32,953 bases of DNA, from assembly GCA_026414685.1 (NCBI GenBank), contig JAOAIN010000061.1, positions 1-32,953 of the forward strand. The letters run 5' to 3'. Below, one piece after another: positions 5,533 through 32,811 of the stretch. Each line of letters opens with the position of its first letter. Position 1 is the first letter of the stretch. A program made the translations under genes and the position numbers. Below the pieces are notes generated by a model, which had not been told where the DNA came from, did no database searches, and saw nothing but the letters and a program-made list of their open reading frames with translations. This stretch comes from Candidatus Goldiibacteriota bacterium (GTDB lineage Bacteria > Oederibacteriota > PGYV01 > DSYL01).

Positions 5533-7032
5533 ATGTTAGAAGTAAAACTTGCTGGTTTTAATATAGATTATGATGCATTGGAGAAATTGAAAAAATTTGG
5601 CTGGGATGGAAAAGATAATTTAACCCCTGAGACAATTTCTGCTGCTTATGCCAGGATAAGCAGAGACCCAAGACCTGTGAATCAATTAAGAGAAGAAGCA
5701 AGGGAAGAAGTAGATAAAGCCAGAAAATCCAATGAAAATATTGTTTTTAAGATGGGACACCATTCTGTTGCTGAGCATGCTTATTTGAATTTTGATATTC
5801 TTGGTATTTCGCGTCTTGCTGTGGAATCACTTGAAGAGGCTCGGCTCTGTTCATATACAGAAAAATCACAACGTTATATAACTTTGGAGGGTGATTATGT
5901 TATTCCAGACGAATTTAATGAAAAAGAGAAAAATCTTTTCAGAAAAATAGTTGGGTTACAGGTTGATGCTTATAATAAGGTTTTACCTGTTTTACATGAA
6001 TATCAGAAGAAAATAAACATTGATAAATTAAATACTAAATCTGGTCAGAATATGGTTGAAGGATGGGCAAAAGAAGACGCACGATATATGGTATGTCTAG
6101 CCACTGAATGCCAGTTGGGATTTTCTACAAATGCACGTAATCTTGAATATATATTACGTAAATTAAAATATAACCCACTTTCTGAAGTGAGAAAACTATC
6201 CAAAATGCTCTATGACAGAGCAAAAAAGGTTGTTCCATCACTTATTATTTTATCTGATCCTGTTGCTTTTAAAAAGCAATTTGGTTGGGAAGTTTCAGAT
6301 GGATTTTTAAAGACTGGTTTAGAAAAGATTGAGATGCTTTCAAAAAATATAAAAATTTTTAGTAAAAAAACATCCCGAATAGAAAGGGAAGTAAATTTAT
6401 TTGACTGGACAGACAACATTGATGAGAAAATAATTGCTGGTTTACTTTATCAAAAAGGAAATATGGGATATTCACAATGCCTTTCAACAATTAAAAAATT
6501 TGACAAAAAGAAAAGAAAAAATATTTTCAAGATGTTTTTTGATGGTTTTACTGAATATGATTCCATGCCAAGGCAATTTGAATTTATAAATTTTTGTTTT
6601 GAATTGATAATAAGCGCCAGTGCCTTTGCACAATTAAAAAGACACAGAATGATGACTATATTAAAACAACCATATGATATAAATCTAGGGATAACCATAC
6701 CGCCATCATTCATTATAACTAACCAGGAAAAAATATTAAAAGATATTATTAGAAAAACAGAACATCTGTTTGAAAAATTATATAAAAAGAATAAACATGC
6801 GGCTGCGTATGTGTTAACAAATGCTCATAGGAGAAAAGTTTTAATAAATATAAATTTAAGAGAACTTTACCATCTTGCTCGTTTACGTATGGACAGTCAT
6901 GCTCAATGGGATATTCAAAACATAGTAACAGCCATGGTAGCAGCGGTTAAAAGGATAGCCCCGTTATCAGGTGCCCTCCTGTGTGGAAAAGATGAATTCA
7001 AAAAATGTTATGAAGAATTTATTAATAGTTAA
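5533..7032 (+). CDS. thyX: Double-length FAD-dependent thymidylate synthase (ThyX) family protein
   Basis: First half: HHSVAEHAYLNFDI...EEARLCSYTEKSQRY...STNARNLEYIL; second half: LKRHRMMTILKQPYD...NLRELYHLARLRMDSHAQWDIQ. Confidence 0.85.
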   Translation: MLEVKLAGFNIDYDALEKLKKFGWDGKDNLTPETISAAYARISRDPRPVNQLREEAREEVDKARKSNENIVFKMGHHSVAEHAYLNFDILGISRLAVESLEEARLCSYTEKSQRYITLEGDYVIPDEFNEKEKNLFRKIVGLQVDAYNKVLPVLHEYQKKINIDKLNTKSGQNMVEGWAKEDARYMVCLATECQLGFSTNARNLEYILRKLKYNPLSEVRKLSKMLYDRAKKVVPSLIILSDPVAFKKQFGWEVSDGFLKTGLEKIEMLSKNIKIFSKKTSRIEREVNLFDWTDNIDEKIIAGLLYQKGNMGYSQCLSTIKKFDKKKRKNIFKMFFDGFTEYDSMPRQFEFINFCFELIISASAFAQLKRHRMMTILKQPYDINLGITIPPSFIITNQEKILKDIIRKTEHLFEKLYKKNKHAAAYVLTNAHRRKVLININLRELYHLARLRMDSHAQWDIQNIVTAMVAAVKRIAPLSGALLCGKDEFKKCYEEFINS

Positions 7033-9483: not shown

Positions 9484-10188
9484 ATGATAAAAAAAATTTT
9501 AAAATTTACATTTTTATTTTTTTTGATAATAGCTTGTTGTATTAGTAATTATATTGCTACCAAAGATTTATTCAAAAACCAACCTGAATGGTATTTTTTA
9601 AGAAAACATTCTTTTAAAAAATTCAATCATATTTTAAGTGCTGCAATGGGTTTCAGAGCAGTTATGGCTGATTTTGAATACATATATTTTCTGCAATATT
9701 ATGGAGATCCGGCTAATAAAAGAGAGAGATACATTAAATTATATTCAATTTTTGATTCCATAACAGATATTGATCCACATTTTATTTTTACTTATACATT
9801 TGGTAGTGCTATTTTGGCTTTTGATGTAAAAAGATATGATGAGGCCATTTCATTGATAAAAAAAGGATTGAAATATAATCCTACATTGTGGAGGTTGAGA
9901 TTATATCTTGGAGCCATTGTTTATAAAGAATTAGAAGATAAAGAAAAATATGTAAGTTATCTTGAAGAAGCACTCAAATACGATGATCATCCAGCAATGA
10001 TAGAAAGAATATTAGGACATATTTATGAACAATATAAAACTCCTGATGAGGTAGTTGCTTACTGGGTTAAAATTTATAAAATCACAAAAGATAAAGAAAC
10101 ACGGCAGCATGCCTACAAAAAAATAATTCATTATATTGAGAGTAAAAAAATAAAAAATCCTGAATCAATTTTAGAACAGATAAAATGA
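9484..10188 (+). CDS. TPR-like repeat protein with N-terminal membrane anchor/signal
   Basis: N-terminal hydrophobic segment; helical repeats ([50 protein letters not shown]); ATGA overlap with uvrA. Confidence 0.7.
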
Positions 10189-13001
10189 CCAAATATATAG
10201 TAATAAACGGAGCACGTGAGCATAATCTAAAAAATATAAATTTAAAAATTCCACGTGATAAACTGGTTGTTATAACTGGTGTATCTGGTTCTGGAAAATC
10301 ATCACTTGCCTTTGACACCATATATGCAGAAGGTCAAAGAAGATATGTGGAGTCATTATCTGCTTATGCCAGGCAGTTCTTAGGACAGATGCAGAAACCA
10401 GATGTAGATTCAATAGAAGGTTTATCTCCTGCAATTGCAATAGAACAGCGTAGTGCTGGAGCAAATCCACGTTCAACTGTTGGAACAATAACAGAAATTT
10501 ATGATTATTTAAGATTATTATATGCAAGAATTGGTATTCCTCATTGTCCTAATTGTAAAATACCAATAAAGTCCCAGACAGTGCAGCAGATTGTGGATAG
10601 AATACTCAAAATACCTGAAAAAACAAAAATTATGATACTGGCACCTGTTGTAAGAGGTAGAAAAGGAGAATACAATAAATTATTTGAAAATATTAAAAAA
10701 GAAGGTTTTTTAAGAGTACGAGTAGATGGTGAAGTAAAATCTCTTGATGAAAAGATAATTCTTGATAAAAATAAAAAACATTCAATAGAAATAGTCATAG
10801 ATAGAATTGAAACTGGAAATATAAATAAAAAACGTATAACAGAATCTGTAGAACTTGCCTTAAAAATTGGAGAGGGAATAATAATAATAAATCAGATAAA
10901 AGATAATCAAGATATGCTTTTTTCAGATAAATTATCCTGCCCTAACTGTGATTTTTCAATGGCAAAACTGGAGCCACGGATATTTTCATTTAATAATCCT
11001 TATGGTGCATGTCCTGTATGTACTGGATTAGGAAGTCGTGTTGAAGTTGATCCCAAACTTGTTGTTGATGAGGAACTAAGCATTAATGAAGGTGCACTTA
11101 AACCATGGACAAATCAGGAAAGTTATTACTGGCATCTTGTAACGGGTCTTGCAAAGCATATGAATTTTTCTCTTGGAACTCCATTTAAAAAGTTACCAGC
11201 AAATGTTAAAAATGCACTTCTATATGGTCTAAGTGAGGATATCAAATTTCATTACAAGGGTTTTGCAAGCGAATGGAAGCATTACGGACAATTTGAAGGT
11301 TTAATTCCATTTCTTGAAAGAAGATATAAGGAAACAGAAACAGAAAGAATAAGAGAAGAGATATTTGAAAAATATATGGAAGAAAAAGAATGCAGTGCAT
11401 GCAATGGTAAAAGATTAAAGCCGGAATCTCTGTCTGTTTTAATTGAAAAGAAATCAATAATTGATATCACTGAAATGTCCATAGAGAATTGTTATGAATT
11501 TTTTAATAATTTAAAACTTTCTGAAAAAGAAGAAATAATAGCAAGACAGATTCTAAAAGAAATAAAAGGTAGATTACAATTTTTAATCAACGTTGGTCTA
11601 TCTTATCTTACATTGGATAGAAAAGCAGGGACATTATCGGGTGGTGAATTTCAAAGAATTCATCTTGCGACACAGATAGGAGTGGGGCTTGTAGGTGTTT
11701 TATATATTCTTGATGAGCCCTCCATTGGATTGCATCAGAGGGATAATCAAAAACTTTTAAATACTCTGAAAACATTAAGAGATTTAGGAAATACTGTTAT
11801 TGTTGTTGAACATGATGAAGAAACAATATTGAATGCTGATTATATAGTTGATATGGGACCTGGACCAGGTGTTCATGGCGGAGAAGTTGTTGTTGCTGGT
11901 GATATCAATCAACTTATTAAATCAAAAAATTCAATAACTGCAAAATATCTTTTAAATAAAGAGAAAATTAAAATAAAAACTAAAAGAAGACAATTCAGCG
12001 GTGTCTTGGAAATAACAGGAGTAAATAAAAATAATTTAAAAAATTTAAATGTAAAGTTTCCACTCGGTGCTTTTATATGCATCACAGGAGTATCCGGCTC
12101 CGGTAAATCATCACTAATTGCTGAAACATTATATCCTGCATTAACTTACGAAGTTTACAGGGGTATTCATAAACCATCAGGTTATAAGGAACTTAAAAAC
12201 TGGAATTTAATTGATAAAGTTATTGAAATAGATCAATCACCCATAGGTTGAACTCCAAGATCCAATCCAGCAACTTATACGGGTGTTTTTACTGAAATCA
12301 GAGAACTTTTTGCAAATACAAAGGAAGCACGTCTGCGTGGTTATGGCCCAGGTAGGTTTTCTTTTAATGTGCGTGGTGGTAGATGTGAAGCGTGTGCTGG
12401 TGATGGAATTATTAAAATTGAGATGCATTTTTTACCAGATGTCTATGTGCCTTGCGAGGAATGTAAGGGTAAGAGATATAACAGAGAAACACTTGAAATT
12501 TTATACAAAGATAAAAATATCGCAGAAGTTCTTGAAATGCGTGTGGAAGAGGCCCTGAAATTTTTTGAAAATATACCAGGTATAAAAAGAATTCTCGAAA
12601 CCCTTGATGAAGTCGGACTTGGATATATTCAGCTTGGTCAATCAGCCACAACATTATCGGGCGGTGAAGCGCAGAGAGTAAAACTAGCAACTGAATTATC
12701 CAGAAAATCAACTGGAAAAACATTATATATGCTTGATGAGCCAACAACAGGACTTCATTTTGCAGATATTGAAAAACTTTTAAATGTTTTAAACAAACTT
12801 GTTGATATGGGAAATACAGTGATAGTTGTTGAACATAATCTTGATATAATTAAAAATGCTGACTGGATAATTGATTTAGGACCAGAAGGTGGAGATAAAG
12901 GTGGTTTTATTGTTGCCGAAGGCACTCCTGAGGATATTATGAAAAATAAAAATTCATACACGGGACAGTATTTAAGTAAATATTTAAAAAGAAACCTTTG
13001 A
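10185..13001 (+). pseudogene. uvrA: UvrA excinuclease ABC subunit A, interrupted by one in-frame TGA at 12249-12251
   Basis: 10185..12251 (GVSGSGKSS twice, zinc-binding CxxC pairs, LSGGE) ends IDQSPIG*; same frame continues [21 protein letters not shown]...[15 protein letters not shown]...[16 protein letters not shown] to 13001. Confidence 0.92.
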
Positions 13002-24551: not shown

Positions 24552-26718
<2,167 letters not shown>

Positions 26719-26730
26719 AAGGAGGTTTTT

Positions 26731-27087
26731 ATGTTTGTCTCTTTATTATTTGCAGCTGAAAATGTACCGGCATCTACCCCAGCGGCAGCAGAAGGTCCTT
26801 CAATGCTTCAGGCTTTTTTACCACTTATTATCATTTTTGTTTTATTTTACTTTATGTTTATCATACCAAATAAAAAGGAACAGAAAAAACATCAAGAAAT
26901 GTTAAAATCGTTAAAAATTGGAGATAAGATTATCACCAGTGGGGGTATAATCGGTGTGATAGATAAAATCAATGATACAGAAGATATAATAAGAATAAAA
27001 AGCGGCGAAAATACTCTTATTAATATAAAGAGAAGTTATATTGCATCCAAATTAGAAAAACCATCAGAAGAACTGGAAAAAAAATAA
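26731..27087 (+). CDS. yajC: Preprotein translocase subunit YajC
   Basis: FLPLIIIFVLFYFMFIIPNKKEQKKHQEMLKSLKIGDKIITSGGIIGVI; SD aaaggaggt. Confidence 0.93.
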   Translation: MFVSLLFAAENVPASTPAAAEGPSMLQAFLPLIIIFVLFYFMFIIPNKKEQKKHQEMLKSLKIGDKIITSGGIIGVIDKINDTEDIIRIKSGENTLINIKRSYIASKLEKPSEELEKK

Positions 27088-28071
27088 ATGTCTGAAATTC
27101 GAAGAGATCCTATTACAAATAGATGGATAATAACACTTGATGATAAATATTTTAATCCTTCATCTGTTTCATCAATACCTATTGATTTACCACAGATTGA
27201 TAAGAATTGTCCTTTCTGTCCCGGTAATGATTCAAAAATCAGTAAAGTGATTTTTGAGTTAAAAGATAAAAATGATGGCTGGAAGATAAAAGTTATACCA
27301 AACAACAGACCATATTTAATGGTGGAGAAGCAATTGAAAAAACAGGGCAGGGGGATTTTTGATGTTATAAGTGGCACAGGTGCAAATGAGGTAATAATTG
27401 AAAATCCATTGCATAATATTGATATTGATAAACTTGATATACAATCAATATCTGACATTATAAAAACCTATATTAACAGGACGCTGGATTTGAAAAAGGA
27501 TATTCGTTTTGAATATATTTTCATTTTTAAAAATAGAGGCCCGGATGCCGGTGGAACACTTTTTCATCCATATTCTCAATTAATAGCTTTACCTGTTATT
27601 CCTAAAAGAATATCAGAGGAAATTGAATCATCATTAAAATACTTTGAATTAAAAAACAGATGTATTTTCTGTGATATTATTGATAACGAATTACTGAACA
27701 ATGAAAGAGTTGTAAAAGAGACTGAAAATTATGTTGTCATAACACCATTTGCATCACGGGTCGCTTTTGAATTATGCATACTTCCCAAATTTCATTCTAC
27801 ACATTTTTATAATTTAAACGAGCAACAGATATCAGAATTGAGCACTGTTTTAAAAGATGTAATTTACAGATTGAATAAATCTTTAAATAATCCATCATAT
27901 AATTATATGATACACACCGCCCCTGTAAAATCAGAAGAAATCCCATATTATCACTGGCATATTGAAATAATGCCACGTATAAAAAGAACAGAAGGATTTG
28001 AATGGGGAACAGGTTTTTACATAAATCCTACATTGCCGGAAGATGTAGCAGAATATTTAAGAAAAATTTAA
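27088..28071 (+). CDS. galT: Galactose-1-phosphate uridylyltransferase family protein (HIT superfamily); catalytic HPH appears as HPY
   Basis: RRDPITNRWIITL, CPFCPGND, GGTLFHPYSQLIALPVIPKR, CIFCDII, YHWHIEIMPR. Confidence 0.88.
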   Translation: MSEIRRDPITNRWIITLDDKYFNPSSVSSIPIDLPQIDKNCPFCPGNDSKISKVIFELKDKNDGWKIKVIPNNRPYLMVEKQLKKQGRGIFDVISGTGANEVIIENPLHNIDIDKLDIQSISDIIKTYINRTLDLKKDIRFEYIFIFKNRGPDAGGTLFHPYSQLIALPVIPKRISEEIESSLKYFELKNRCIFCDIIDNELLNNERVVKETENYVVITPFASRVAFELCILPKFHSTHFYNLNEQQISELSTVLKDVIYRLNKSLNNPSYNYMIHTAPVKSEEIPYYHWHIEIMPRIKRTEGFEWGTGFYINPTLPEDVAEYLRKI

Positions 28072-28073
28072 TT

Positions 28074-29279
28074 ATGTCATATTTGAATGAAAAACCATTT
28101 ACAGTTACAGAGATAAATAATTTAATTAAAAATTTAGTTGAAGAAAATTTACAGAAAGTTTGGGTAAAAGGAGAGATATCCAATCTTTCAATACCATCAT
28201 CTGGTCATATTTATTTTACTTTAAAAGATGCTTTTAGCCAAATAAAAGTGGCATTTTTTAAATCCAGTAATAAATTGAATAATTTACAACTTAAGGATGG
28301 TAAAGAAGTTATTGTTTATGGAAAAATATCAATATATTCAAAACGGAGTGAATATCAGATAATAGCGGAAGAGATAAAAATATCAGGTGAAGGTGATTTA
28401 TTACTTGAATTTGAAAGACTCAAAAAGAAATTATCTGATGAAGGTTTATTTAATGAAAATAGAAAGCGTCCTATTCCACGTTTCCCGGAAAAAATAGGTA
28501 TTATTACCAGTCCCACTGGAGCAGTGATAAAAGATATCATAAAAATAATAAACAGAAGATACAAAGCGGTTGAAATTATAATTTATCCATCCATGGTTCA
28601 GGGGGATGAAGCGGCTCAACAGTTAATTGAAGGAATTAAATATTTTAATTCAAAAACAGATATTGATGTGATAATTCTTGCTCGTGGGGGTGGCTCAATA
28701 GAGGATTTATGGCCATTTAATGATGAAAATCTTGCACGTGAAATATATGCATCAAAAATTCCAGTGATATCAGCGGTGGGACATGAAGTTGATTTTACAA
28801 TTGCGGATTTTGTGGCTGATTTACGTGCTCCAACTCCATCTGCTGCAGCAGAACTTGTTGTGCCAGATACAGAAGAATTGTTAGATAAACTGGATAATTA
28901 TAAAAAAATTTTATATACTGTTATAAATAATTTATTGGAAAATTATAATGAAAAAATAAAAGGATATGAAACAAATAATGTTTTTAGAAAGATATTAAAT
29001 TTTTATGATGAATACAGTCAAATGCTTGATGATTATATTCTAGAAATAAAAAAAACAATAAAAAATTTTTTAGAAAAAAAAGAAGAAAAAGTTAAATTTA
29101 TTGCTGAAAAACTTATGTTACTTAATCCTTATGCGATTCTTAAAAAAGGATATTCTGTTGTTTTTGATAATACAGGTAAAATAATAAAGTCATATGAAAA
29201 TGTAAAAAAGGGTCAGGATATCAATATAAGATTACACAGAGGAAAATTAAAGGCTGATGTTACAAAAATTGAACCATGA
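28074..29279 (+). CDS. xseA: Exodeoxyribonuclease VII large subunit
   Basis: FTVTEINNLIKNLVEENLQKVWVKGEISNL, GIITSPTGAVIKDI, ARGGGSIEDLWPFNDENLAREI, VGHEVDFTIADFVADLRAPTPSAAAEL. Confidence 0.96.
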   Translation: MSYLNEKPFTVTEINNLIKNLVEENLQKVWVKGEISNLSIPSSGHIYFTLKDAFSQIKVAFFKSSNKLNNLQLKDGKEVIVYGKISIYSKRSEYQIIAEEIKISGEGDLLLEFERLKKKLSDEGLFNENRKRPIPRFPEKIGIITSPTGAVIKDIIKIINRRYKAVEIIIYPSMVQGDEAAQQLIEGIKYFNSKTDIDVIILARGGGSIEDLWPFNDENLAREIYASKIPVISAVGHEVDFTIADFVADLRAPTPSAAAELVVPDTEELLDKLDNYKKILYTVINNLLENYNEKIKGYETNNVFRKILNFYDEYSQMLDDYILEIKKTIKNFLEKKEEKVKFIAEKLMLLNPYAILKKGYSVVFDNTGKIIKSYENVKKGQDINIRLHRGKLKADVTKIEP

Positions 29280-29287
29280 GGTGTTCT

Positions 29288-29545
29288 ATGTCAAAAGACA
29301 AAAAAGAAAATATAGAAAATTTAATGAAACAGATTGAAAATATTATTGAAGAACTTGAAACCGGAGAACTTGACCTTGATGAATCAATAAAGAAATATGA
29401 AAATGGGATGATTTTAATAGATAAATGTAAAAAAATACTTAAAGAAGCCAAATTAAAAATTGAGACACTTAAGAAAAAGGGAAAGGACGAAGAAAAGGAC
29501 ACGGAAGAGGATGAGATGGAAAATGATGATGAAAAACTTTTTTAA
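29288..29545 (+). CDS. xseB: Exodeoxyribonuclease VII small subunit
   Basis: ENLMKQIENIIEELETGELDLDESIKKYENGMILIDKCKKILKEAKLKIE; follows xseA. Confidence 0.92.
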   Translation: MSKDKKENIENLMKQIENIIEELETGELDLDESIKKYENGMILIDKCKKILKEAKLKIETLKKKGKDEEKDTEEDEMENDDEKLF

Positions 29546-29556
29546 TTGGATATTTT

Positions 29557-30438
29557 ATGAAAAGATTAATAATCAACTTGATAAAAAAAATAAATAAAAA
29601 TTTATCTAATTATCTTAAATCAAAATTTGAATTTCCGCCTATTATTTATAAAGCGGTTAGATATAGTGTTTTTGCCGGCGGTAAAAGAATAAGACCTGTT
29701 TTATTATTGTTAACAGCAAAATCATGCGGTCTTTCTATTAAAAGTGTAATGCCAGTTGCATGTGGTATTGAAATGATACATACATATTCTTTAATACATG
29801 ATGATTTGCCAGCAATGGATAATGATGATTACAGAAGAGGTAAATTAACATCACATAAAAAATTCGGAGAGGCAATTGCTATTTTAGCGGGGGATGCTTT
29901 ACTTACAAAAGCATTTGAAACAATTTGTAATTGTAAAAGATTTTTTTCTTCAGATAAAATTATAAAAATTATTAAATTAATTGCAGATGCAGCCGGTATA
30001 AATGGTATGGTTGGAGGACAAGTGGCTGATATATTATTTGAAAATAAACCAATTTCAAAAAAAACACTTCAATTTATTCATTCACATAAAACAGGAGCAT
30101 TGATTAAAGCATCTATATTATCAGGTGCAATTTTATCTGATACGGTTGATAATAAAGAATTAAAATTATGGAATAAACTGGGTGAAATTGTAGGTATGAT
30201 TTTTCAGATAACAGATGATATACTGGATATTACATCAACAACAAAAAAACTGGGAAAAACCGCAGGCAAAGATATAAAACAAAAAAAAGCAACTTTTCCT
30301 GCTGTCTATGGGCTGAATAGATCGAGACAGATTGTATCAAATTTATTACTTGAAGCAAAAAAAATTTTATATAAAATAAAAAAGCCAACAGAAGATATTT
30401 TAAATCTGATTGAATATATATCAATCAGAGAAAAATAA
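29557..30438 (+). CDS. ispA: Polyprenyl diphosphate synthase (farnesyl/geranylgeranyl type)
   Basis: GGKRIRP, HTYSLIHDDLPAMDNDDYRRGKLTSHKKFG, FQITDDILDI. Confidence 0.93.
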   Translation: MKRLIINLIKKINKNLSNYLKSKFEFPPIIYKAVRYSVFAGGKRIRPVLLLLTAKSCGLSIKSVMPVACGIEMIHTYSLIHDDLPAMDNDDYRRGKLTSHKKFGEAIAILAGDALLTKAFETICNCKRFFSSDKIIKIIKLIADAAGINGMVGGQVADILFENKPISKKTLQFIHSHKTGALIKASILSGAILSDTVDNKELKLWNKLGEIVGMIFQITDDILDITSTTKKLGKTAGKDIKQKKATFPAVYGLNRSRQIVSNLLLEAKKILYKIKKPTEDILNLIEYISIREK

Positions 30439-30455
30439 ATTTTATAGGTGATTTT

Positions 30456-30932
30456 ATGGATGATTTTTTAATTGCATTAAATAATATATGGAATACAGTA
30501 GTAATCATTGTCACACATAAGATTTTTTATATTACATTTTTTACATGGTTAATAGCCCAGACATTAAAAGTTTTGATTTTCTTTATAACAAAGCATAAGT
30601 TTGATTTTAGATTGTTTGTAGGGACAGGTGGCATGCCATCATCTCATACAGCTGCTGTTTCTGCTATTACAACAACAATAGGGTTATATTCAGGTTGGGA
30701 CTCTCCTGTTTTCATGGTTTCTTTATGTTATGCAATAATAGTTATAAGCGATGCTATGGGAGTGAGAAGAGCTGCAGGTAAACAAGCGGTTGTACTTAAT
30801 AAAATGATGGATGAGATTGAGCATGGTAAATTCAAATACGAAAAAAGATTAAAAGAACTTCTTGGACATACTCCCTTAGAAGCCTTTGCGGGAATATTGA
30901 TAGGTATTGTTTTCCCGATACTGATGTTTTAA
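30456..30932 (+). CDS. Divergent PAP2 / DUF212 family membrane protein
   Basis: GTGGMPSSHTAAVSAITTTIG, AIIVISDAMGVRRAAGKQA, GHTPLEAFAGILIGI. Confidence 0.88.
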   Translation: MDDFLIALNNIWNTVVIIVTHKIFYITFFTWLIAQTLKVLIFFITKHKFDFRLFVGTGGMPSSHTAAVSAITTTIGLYSGWDSPVFMVSLCYAIIVISDAMGVRRAAGKQAVVLNKMMDEIEHGKFKYEKRLKELLGHTPLEAFAGILIGIVFPILMF

Positions 30933-30942
30933 TCATTTAATT

Positions 30943-32811
30943 ATGATTTATAAAATACTTACTAAAATAAACACACCCAATGATATAAAAAAATTATCAT
31001 TTGAGCAGCTTGAAGTACTTGTTACTGAAATTAGAGATTATATATTAAATGTGGTTTCAAAAACAGGTGGTCATCTTGCTTCATCGCTTGGAGCTGTTGA
31101 AATAACTCTTGCTCTTTATAAAGTATTTGATCCACCTTTTGATAAGATAATCTGGGATATAGGTCACCAAGCATATTGTCATAAAATAGTAACTGGTAGA
31201 ATGAAAAGATTTAAAACTTTAAGACAGAAAAATGGCATATCTGGTTTTTTAAAGCCTACTGAAAGTAAGTATGATATTTTTGGAGCAGGTCATTCTTCCA
31301 CATCCATATCCGCTGCGCTTGGTTTTGCCAAAGCACGGGATTTAAATAAAGAAAGATATGAAGTTGTTGCTGTAATTGGGGATGCATCTTTGGCAAATGG
31401 TATGGCTCTTGAAGCTATAAATCATCTAGGTCATGATAAAACCAAAATGTTAATAGTTGTTATTGATAATGAAATGTCAATTTCTCCAACTGTAGGAGCT
31501 CTTGCAGAATATTTTAATAGATTAATGAGTGGCGGCTTCATTAATAAATTGAGAAATACTATAAAAACTACATTACAAAAAATACCAGCTATAGGATATC
31601 CAACGACAAAAATTTTAATGAGTTTAGAAGAAGGTATTAAAGCTATATTTTCACCGGGAATTATTTTTGATGAACTTGGTATTCGTTATTTTGGACCTAT
31701 AAATGGACATAATATAAAATTACTTGTTGAAACATTAAAAAATATTAAAAACATAAATGGCCCTAAATTACTTCATATAGTGACAAAAAAGGGTAAAGGT
31801 TATAAGCCTGCAGAAGAAAATCCAACTATGTTCCATGGTATAGGTGCATTTGATCCTGCAACAGGCATTCCTGTATGCAAATCAAATATTCCTACATATT
31901 CAAAAGTTTTCTCCGATACATTAATAAAACAGGCGGTAAAGAATAAAAAAATTGTAGCAGTTGTTGCTGCCATGATAGAAGGCACAAATCTATCCGCTTT
32001 TAAAGAAAAATATCCTGATAGATTTTTTGATGTTGGTATTGCAGAAGAACATGCGGTTACTTTTGCAGCAGGACTTGCAAAAGCAGGTTTAAAACCTTTT
32101 GTCTGTGTTTATTCAACTTTTTTACAGCGTGGATTTGATCAGATAATACATGATGTAGGTATTCAAAAATTACCTGTTGTATTTATTATGGATAGGGCGG
32201 GGTTAGTTGGAGAAGATGGTGCAACTCACCATGGTGTTTTTGATATAGCATTTATGAAGATGATACCTAATATGGTTATAATGGCTCCTTCTGATGCTAA
32301 TGAATTGCAGAAGATGATTTCTTTTGCAGCGGATTACAAAGATGGACCAGTTTCTATACGTTTTCCAAGAGGAGAGAGTTACTATTATAATTCTAATTTA
32401 CAAATTAAACTCGGTAAAGCGCGTATTATTAAAAAAGGAAATTCATTGACAATATTAAATTTTGGTGCACTTTTGCCGAAAATAATGAAAGCCATTGAAA
32501 AAGTTGGGGATAAAAATAAAATAGAGATAATTGATGTTAGATTTTTAAAACCAATTGATGAAAAAACAATAATAAAATCTATAAAAAAGACAAAAAAAGT
32601 AATAACAATAGAAGAAGGAGTTATTCATGGTGGCTTTGGTGAGACAGTTTTGCGGATAATTTCAGAATATAATTTAAAAAATATAAAAGTAAAGCAACTG
32701 GGTATTCCAGATAAATTCATTGAACATGGAACAATTGAAGAATGTCGCGAAGAAGCTGGTCTAACTGAAAATAACTTTATTAAACATATAAAAGAATTTT
32801 TGAAATTATAA
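30943..32811 (+). CDS. dxs: 1-deoxy-D-xylulose-5-phosphate synthase
   Basis: SKTGGHLASSLGAVEITLALYKVFDPPFDKIIWDIGHQAYCHKIVTGR, DNEMSIS, GIAEEHAVTFAAGLA, DRAGLVGEDGATHHGVFD. Confidence 0.95.
   Translation: MIYKILTKINTPNDIKKLSFEQLEVLVTEIRDYILNVVSKTGGHLASSLGAVEITLALYKVFDPPFDKIIWDIGHQAYCHKIVTGRMKRFKTLRQKNGISGFLKPTESKYDIFGAGHSSTSISAALGFAKARDLNKERYEVVAVIGDASLANGMALEAINHLGHDKTKMLIVVIDNEMSISPTVGALAEYFNRLMSGGFINKLRNTIKTTLQKIPAIGYPTTKILMSLEEGIKAIFSPGIIFDELGIRYFGPINGHNIKLLVETLKNIKNINGPKLLHIVTKKGKGYKPAEENPTMFHGIGAFDPATGIPVCKSNIPTYSKVFSDTLIKQAVKNKKIVAVVAAMIEGTNLSAFKEKYPDRFFDVGIAEEHAVTFAAGLAKAGLKPFVCVYSTFLQRGFDQIIHDVGIQKLPVVFIMDRAGLVGEDGATHHGVFDIAFMKMIPNMVIMAPSDANELQKMISFAADYKDGPVSIRFPRGESYYYNSNLQIKLGKARIIKKGNSLTILNFGALLPKIMKAIEKVGDKNKIEIIDVRFLKPIDEKTIIKSIKKTKKVITIEEGVIHGGFGETVLRIISEYNLKNIKVKQLGIPDKFIEHGTIEECREEAGLTENNFIKHIKEFLKL

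Follow-up and report, generated by a model that had tools for sequence, protein, structure and literature searches.

The gene between yajC and xseA in the window, the stretch of 32,953 nucleotides from a Candidatus Goldiibacteriota contig that was analyzed here, encodes a protein of the GalT/ADP-glucose phosphorylase (ADPGP) fold in which the nucleophilic histidine is replaced by tyrosine, and this raises the question of what such a protein still does. An earlier note, made from the letters alone, had pointed out an HPYSQ motif in place of the expected one and had left the choice between a loss of GalT chemistry and a sequence error. The motif itself was verified by codons 160-164 and by the phmmer alignment, and the zinc and other motifs described as kept are present (CxxC at 41-44, C192xxC195, H236 and HWH at 289-291). 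Both Pfam domains, GalP_UDP_transf and GalP_UDP_tr_C, could be placed on the protein (Table 1), and a phmmer search against the PDB returned At5g18200 (1z84) as the top match with an E-value of 7.7e-74, Pyrobaculum and E. coli GalT ranking below. The protein reaches 121.4 bits with the family model TIGR00209 (cut-off 102.1) and 135 bits with NF008724, far under 448. Since the TIGR00209 cut-off is also passed by the Arg-bearing copy of the tandem pairs described below, this model does not discriminate function. The AlphaFold2 (AF2) model, with a pLDDT of 90.7 and a pTM of 0.90, matched 1z84/2h39 in Foldseek (TM 0.83-0.85), ADPGP being matched along its full length; the predicted structure is confident, yet it does not discriminate between the functional readings.

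Table 1. Positions of the GalT/ADPGP-fold gene, its motifs and its neighbors in the window, and loci of the tandem paralogue pairs.
Feature	Position	Strand	Remarks
GalT/ADPGP-fold protein, nucleophile His to Tyr	27088..28071	+	327 aa; Pfam, TIGR00209, PDB, AF2
TLDDKYFNP, replacing the S-P-x-R-x-x-R-P phosphate-binding motif	27133..27159	+	E. coli GalT R28 to K20, R31 to N23
CPFC, first zinc site (C41, C44)	27208..27219	+	retained
His109, equivalent of zinc ligand E. coli H115	27412..27414	+	retained
HPYSQ motif	27565..27579	+	codons 160-164, cat cca tat tct caa; Tyr162 codon 27571-27573
C192xxC195, second zinc site	27661..27672	+	retained
H289-W-H291	27952..27960	+	retained
tgt	25618..26718	+	conserved upstream neighbor
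yajC	26731..27087	+	directly upstream; stop codon adjoins galT-like start
xseA	28074..29279	+	directly downstream
xseB, polyprenyl synthetase (ispA-like), DUF212, dxs	29276..32811	+	remainder of conserved operon
Tandem-pair loci			L041, L043, L047, L053, L055, L057, L063, L071, L073
Tandem-pair loci, rest			L077, L082, L084, L103, L106, L107, L108, L109, L112

In the phmmer alignment, Tyr162 occupies the column of the nucleophiles of At5g18200 (His186, HSHSQ) and 6k5z (HPHSQ), which is also the site mutated in 2h39 (HSGSQ, Gly) and 6k9z (HPFSQ, Phe); its equivalent in E. coli GalT is the nucleophile His166. A displacement of the nucleophilic His by misalignment was ruled out, as HPYSQ and HPHSQ align free of gaps and H160 is the zinc ligand. 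The alignment with homologues proposed in the earlier note was carried out and revealed that each of the three known genus members has Tyr. The two other members, with 97% and 79% amino acid identity to the window protein, stem from separate assemblies (JAOAAI010000199.1, SKW142; JAGNJD010000012.1, Gw_SlDig_bin_230), and the trio is monophyletic with a support of 99, so that one change suffices. Among 130 aligned loci matches, 112 carry His at this column, the remainder being Arg, Asn, Val, Lys and six Tyr rows, which represent the three genus species, each fetched twice. Once repeat fetches had been removed, 80 of the 82 single-copy relatives from outside the order had His, as did nine of the ten other order members. 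A scan of 384 genomes with the degenerate DNA pattern HxY[ST]Q, which is blind to motifs such as HPYAQ, found the motif in a family context in the three genus members only; five further DNA matches occurred by chance in unrelated proteins. Tyr at the nucleophile position is fixed in the genus and very unusual.

Other replacements at this position were also observed. A divergent paralogue from another family of the same phylum (L117, G023:C79) carries HPYAQ and has no R31. Asn has replaced the nucleophile independently (HLNSQ, HSNSQ) in a single genome from another family of the order (L013 and L126, G005), where the syntenic operon locus is affected, and in one genome of the Nitrospinota (L095), where the gene adjoins glgA.

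The second change, which had escaped the earlier note together with the Asn-bearing relative, concerns the phosphate-binding loop. R28 and R31 of E. coli GalT form the Arg pair that binds the sugar-nucleotide phosphates. Outside the order, the R31 equivalent is Arg in 77 of 82 single-copy relatives, compared to none of 13 within it, and the R28 equivalent is Arg in 80 of 82, compared to Lys in 10 of the 13 order members. The S161 equivalent also drifts within the order. The nucleophile was lost in the genus after R31, which is absent throughout the order. The remainder of the site is kept: the Tyr species retain the equivalents of N77, N153, G159 and Q168 (N72, N149 and Q164 of the window protein being among these columns), both zinc sites and an intact C-terminal FEWGTGxxINPxxPE segment. 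The two predicted zinc sites are complete (C41, C44, H109, H160; C192, C195, H236, H289), and two of the three Tyr species have conservative replacements, D and K, at the otherwise invariant E48 and R68.

The gene is part of a syntenic operon of nine genes (GH5-tgt-yajC-galT-xseA-xseB-ispA-DUF212-dxs), which was found in 11 order members checked and in a twelfth, G008, covering five other families of the order; in G006 the GH5 gene alone is missing within the stretch fetched. The tgt-yajC-galT linkage extends to two additional families of the phylum and is therefore older. An apparent gene loss in G013 is unsupported, as its DXS-family match is only a distant one and the region is probably unassembled. 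For the closest species pair (G000-G002), which alone gave a usable omega because dS has reached saturation in the more distant pair, the dN/dS of the galT-like gene is about 0.07, compared to 0.045 for tgt, 0.09 for xseA and 0.13 for ispA. The galT/xseA ratio, computed from dN values, is 0.72-0.86 for the Tyr species and does not exceed that of His-bearing pairs, which have 0.79-0.96, except for G003-G011 with 1.4. The galT-like gene is retained under purifying selection comparable to that on the neighboring housekeeping genes.

An essential catalytic residue that is lost and fixed, in a gene that remains under purifying selection, is the pattern of a pseudoenzyme, and we consider it probable (roughly 0.6) that the protein is a nucleotide- or nucleotide-sugar-binding pseudoenzyme which has lost covalent (ping-pong) nucleotidyl transfer. 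Human GALT H186A was never uridylylated, hence the His is not simply dispensable (PMC5081055). Furthermore, R48 of human GALT is provided by the chain that lies opposite the nucleophile; in simulations R48/R51 contact F99/D98 of the other chain (PMC5081055; PMC8513031). With both the nucleophile and R31 lost, ping-pong transfer should be abolished, so that the standard GalT chemistry doubted in the earlier note is indeed not to be expected. The strong constraint on the rest of the site makes a ligand-binding pseudoenzyme the most economical reading, and the relative with Asn at the nucleophile position argues that the role does not depend on a nucleophile at this site. The Leloir step is provided for by a genuine GalT-GalK fusion. 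A search for a second ADPGP-type copy that could supply the nucleophile in trans yielded only this fusion and a DUF4921 protein.

The window gene is the Goldbacteria orthologue of an ADPGP/GalT-like protein and stands in a fixed operon. The phosphate-binding loop lost R31 when the order arose or slightly before, and the nucleophile His changed to Tyr on the stem of the genus, after which covalent ping-pong nucleotidyl transfer was most likely gone. The present protein is probably a homodimeric, zinc-stabilized binder which would serve as a sensor, carrier or regulator. Against a pseudoenzyme stands the fact that the substitution is older than the split of the three species and yet the rest of the active-site columns, the Gln beside the nucleophile among them, are still kept, whereas many pseudoenzymes decay faster, and that Tyr is itself a potential nucleophile.

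One alternative is that Tyr162 is a replacement covalent nucleophile which forms a nucleotidylyl-tyrosine, leaving the enzyme active with altered kinetics or an altered substrate. Tyr does act as the nucleophile in other phosphoryl-transfer enzymes, the other active-site columns including Q164, N72 and N149 are kept under purifying selection, and the HPYAQ paralogue provides a second, unrelated Tyr case in the phylum. However, by geometric reasoning the side chain of Tyr, which exceeds that of His in length, would intrude on the alpha-phosphate site. R31 is lost as well, and another family of the order has Asn here, a residue incapable of such a role. No precedent for a Tyr nucleophile was found in the literature searched. 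An altered enzyme of this kind is unlikely, as is the specific form of it in which Tyr162 works through a nucleotidylyl-tyrosine intermediate and R31 loss has possibly opened a new substrate.

A switch of the active site to direct, non-covalent transfer or to slow hydrolysis, in which Tyr would orient a water or the acceptor, draws support from the conserved nucleotide pocket and C-terminal segment and from the maintenance of relatives that have Arg or Asn in place of the nucleophile. The known reactions of the clade, however, are ping-pong through His (PMC5081055), and we regard this explanation as improbable, too.

The window protein could also be the subunit of a heteromer in which another subunit supplies the nucleophile, as is proposed here for 18 tandem pairs of GalT/ADPGP paralogues with complementary residue losses (17 in Omnitrophota, one in Riflebacteria; Table 1). 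The genes of a pair adjoin or overlap; those of L103, for example, are at 6001 and 7028. With R31 and N77 as sorting criteria, which leaves the His column as the independent part of the count, copy A has His and N77 in 18/18 and R31 in 0/18 and retains S/T161, whereas copy B has R28/R31 in all 16 readable cases and N77 in three of 18; His is replaced by Arg, Lys or Val in ten of the 18 B copies, and these counts include related genomes, i.e., the events are not independent. B copies that retain His usually have an altered motif, mostly a one-residue insertion ahead of it. As the Arg residues act across the dimer, the preferred reading of a tandem pair is a heterodimer in which a single site is complete, and the distribution of residues suggests obligate heterodimers with a composite active site; in the literature searched, no paper on tandem split pairs was found. 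These pairs divide His and Arg between paralogues, and it is copy A, without the Arg, that the Goldbacteria protein resembles. Nevertheless, the order is without a copy-B-like gene, in the 100% complete genome G003 the orthologue is accompanied by a DUF4921 protein alone, and in the window protein the His itself is missing, beyond Arg alone, which makes a divided site of this type very unlikely for Goldbacteria.

A sequencing or assembly error or a decaying pseudogene, suggested by the single-base difference between CAT and TAT and by a premature uvrA stop in the same window that is absent in relatives, can practically be dismissed on account of Tyr in three species with separate assemblies, the intact frame and the dN/dS of the gene. 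The common C-to-T cause for both that had been suspected likewise did not hold: the uvrA stop (gene at 10185-13001 of the window; codon 689, which lies within the conserved DQSPIGRTPRSNP motif, DQSPIG(R)TPRSNP, is an in-frame stop) occurs in this assembly alone, the frame being uninterrupted over 950-970 aa in relatives at 97%, 89% and 70% identity. It is a recent nonsense mutation or a sequence error and is thus uninformative on Tyr162.

The locus represents a natural, fixed loss of the nucleophile in an enzyme superfamily that is defined by it, with a readable stepwise history in which R31 went first and His second. It offers a test case for how metabolic enzymes exchange their nucleophile or turn into proteins with binding or regulatory roles. 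In the tandem pairs of the Omnitrophota and of one Riflebacteria member, which were found via the window gene, a single active site appears to be distributed over two subunits. Automatic "galT" labels can mislead, as TIGR00209 is passed by a protein without the nucleophile.

Concerning known systems, the GalT-family label of the earlier note holds for the GalT/ADPGP fold and needs refinement as to the enzyme. The search for galK that it had recommended revealed an intact GalT-GalK fusion of 716 aa in the same genome (L129, G000:C232, 3253-5403, minus strand) with HPHGQ and the Arg pair, which serves the galactose pathway of the cell, so that calling the window gene "GalT" is misleading. This fusion adjoins glycoside hydrolases, and similar open frames of 719-749 aa with a GalT match are present in G001, G007 and G012. 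A role of the window protein as the cell's GalT was ruled out, given the separate fusion and the absence of R28/R31 and His. Judged by sequence, the family lies nearer to ADPGP than to GalT. An ADP-glucose type glgA (TIGR02095) is located in the fetched flanks of 35 of 60 single-copy relatives, which fits an ADPGP ancestry; within the order the gene stands in the tgt-yajC-xseA-dxs context, and glgA is elsewhere in 12 of 14 genomes.

The nearest solved relative is the plant ADPGP At5g18200 (PDB 1z84, 1zwj, 2h39), the best match in both sequence and fold. The two proteins have in common both zinc sites, the zinc His equivalent to H184, the Gln that follows the nucleophile and the FExGTGxxINPxxPE segment at the C-terminus, whereas His186 of the plant enzyme corresponds to Tyr162 and R41/R44 of its SPARAKRP motif to K20/N23. 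With GalT (EC 2.7.7.12; E. coli 1hxp/1gup, human 5in3), the window protein shares the fold, the zinc site and the equivalents of N77, N153, G159, H164 and Q168 at about 23% identity. It differs in having Tyr162, in all three genus members, for the nucleophilic second His (H166) of HPHxQ, and K20 and N23 for the R28/R31 phosphate-binding pair. The DUF4921/DUF4931 GalT-like proteins (PDB 4qvu) have the GalT-like core in common with it and differ in length, in the N-terminus and in the retained nucleophile, as in the DUF4921 protein of the same genome (438 aa, HLHKQ).
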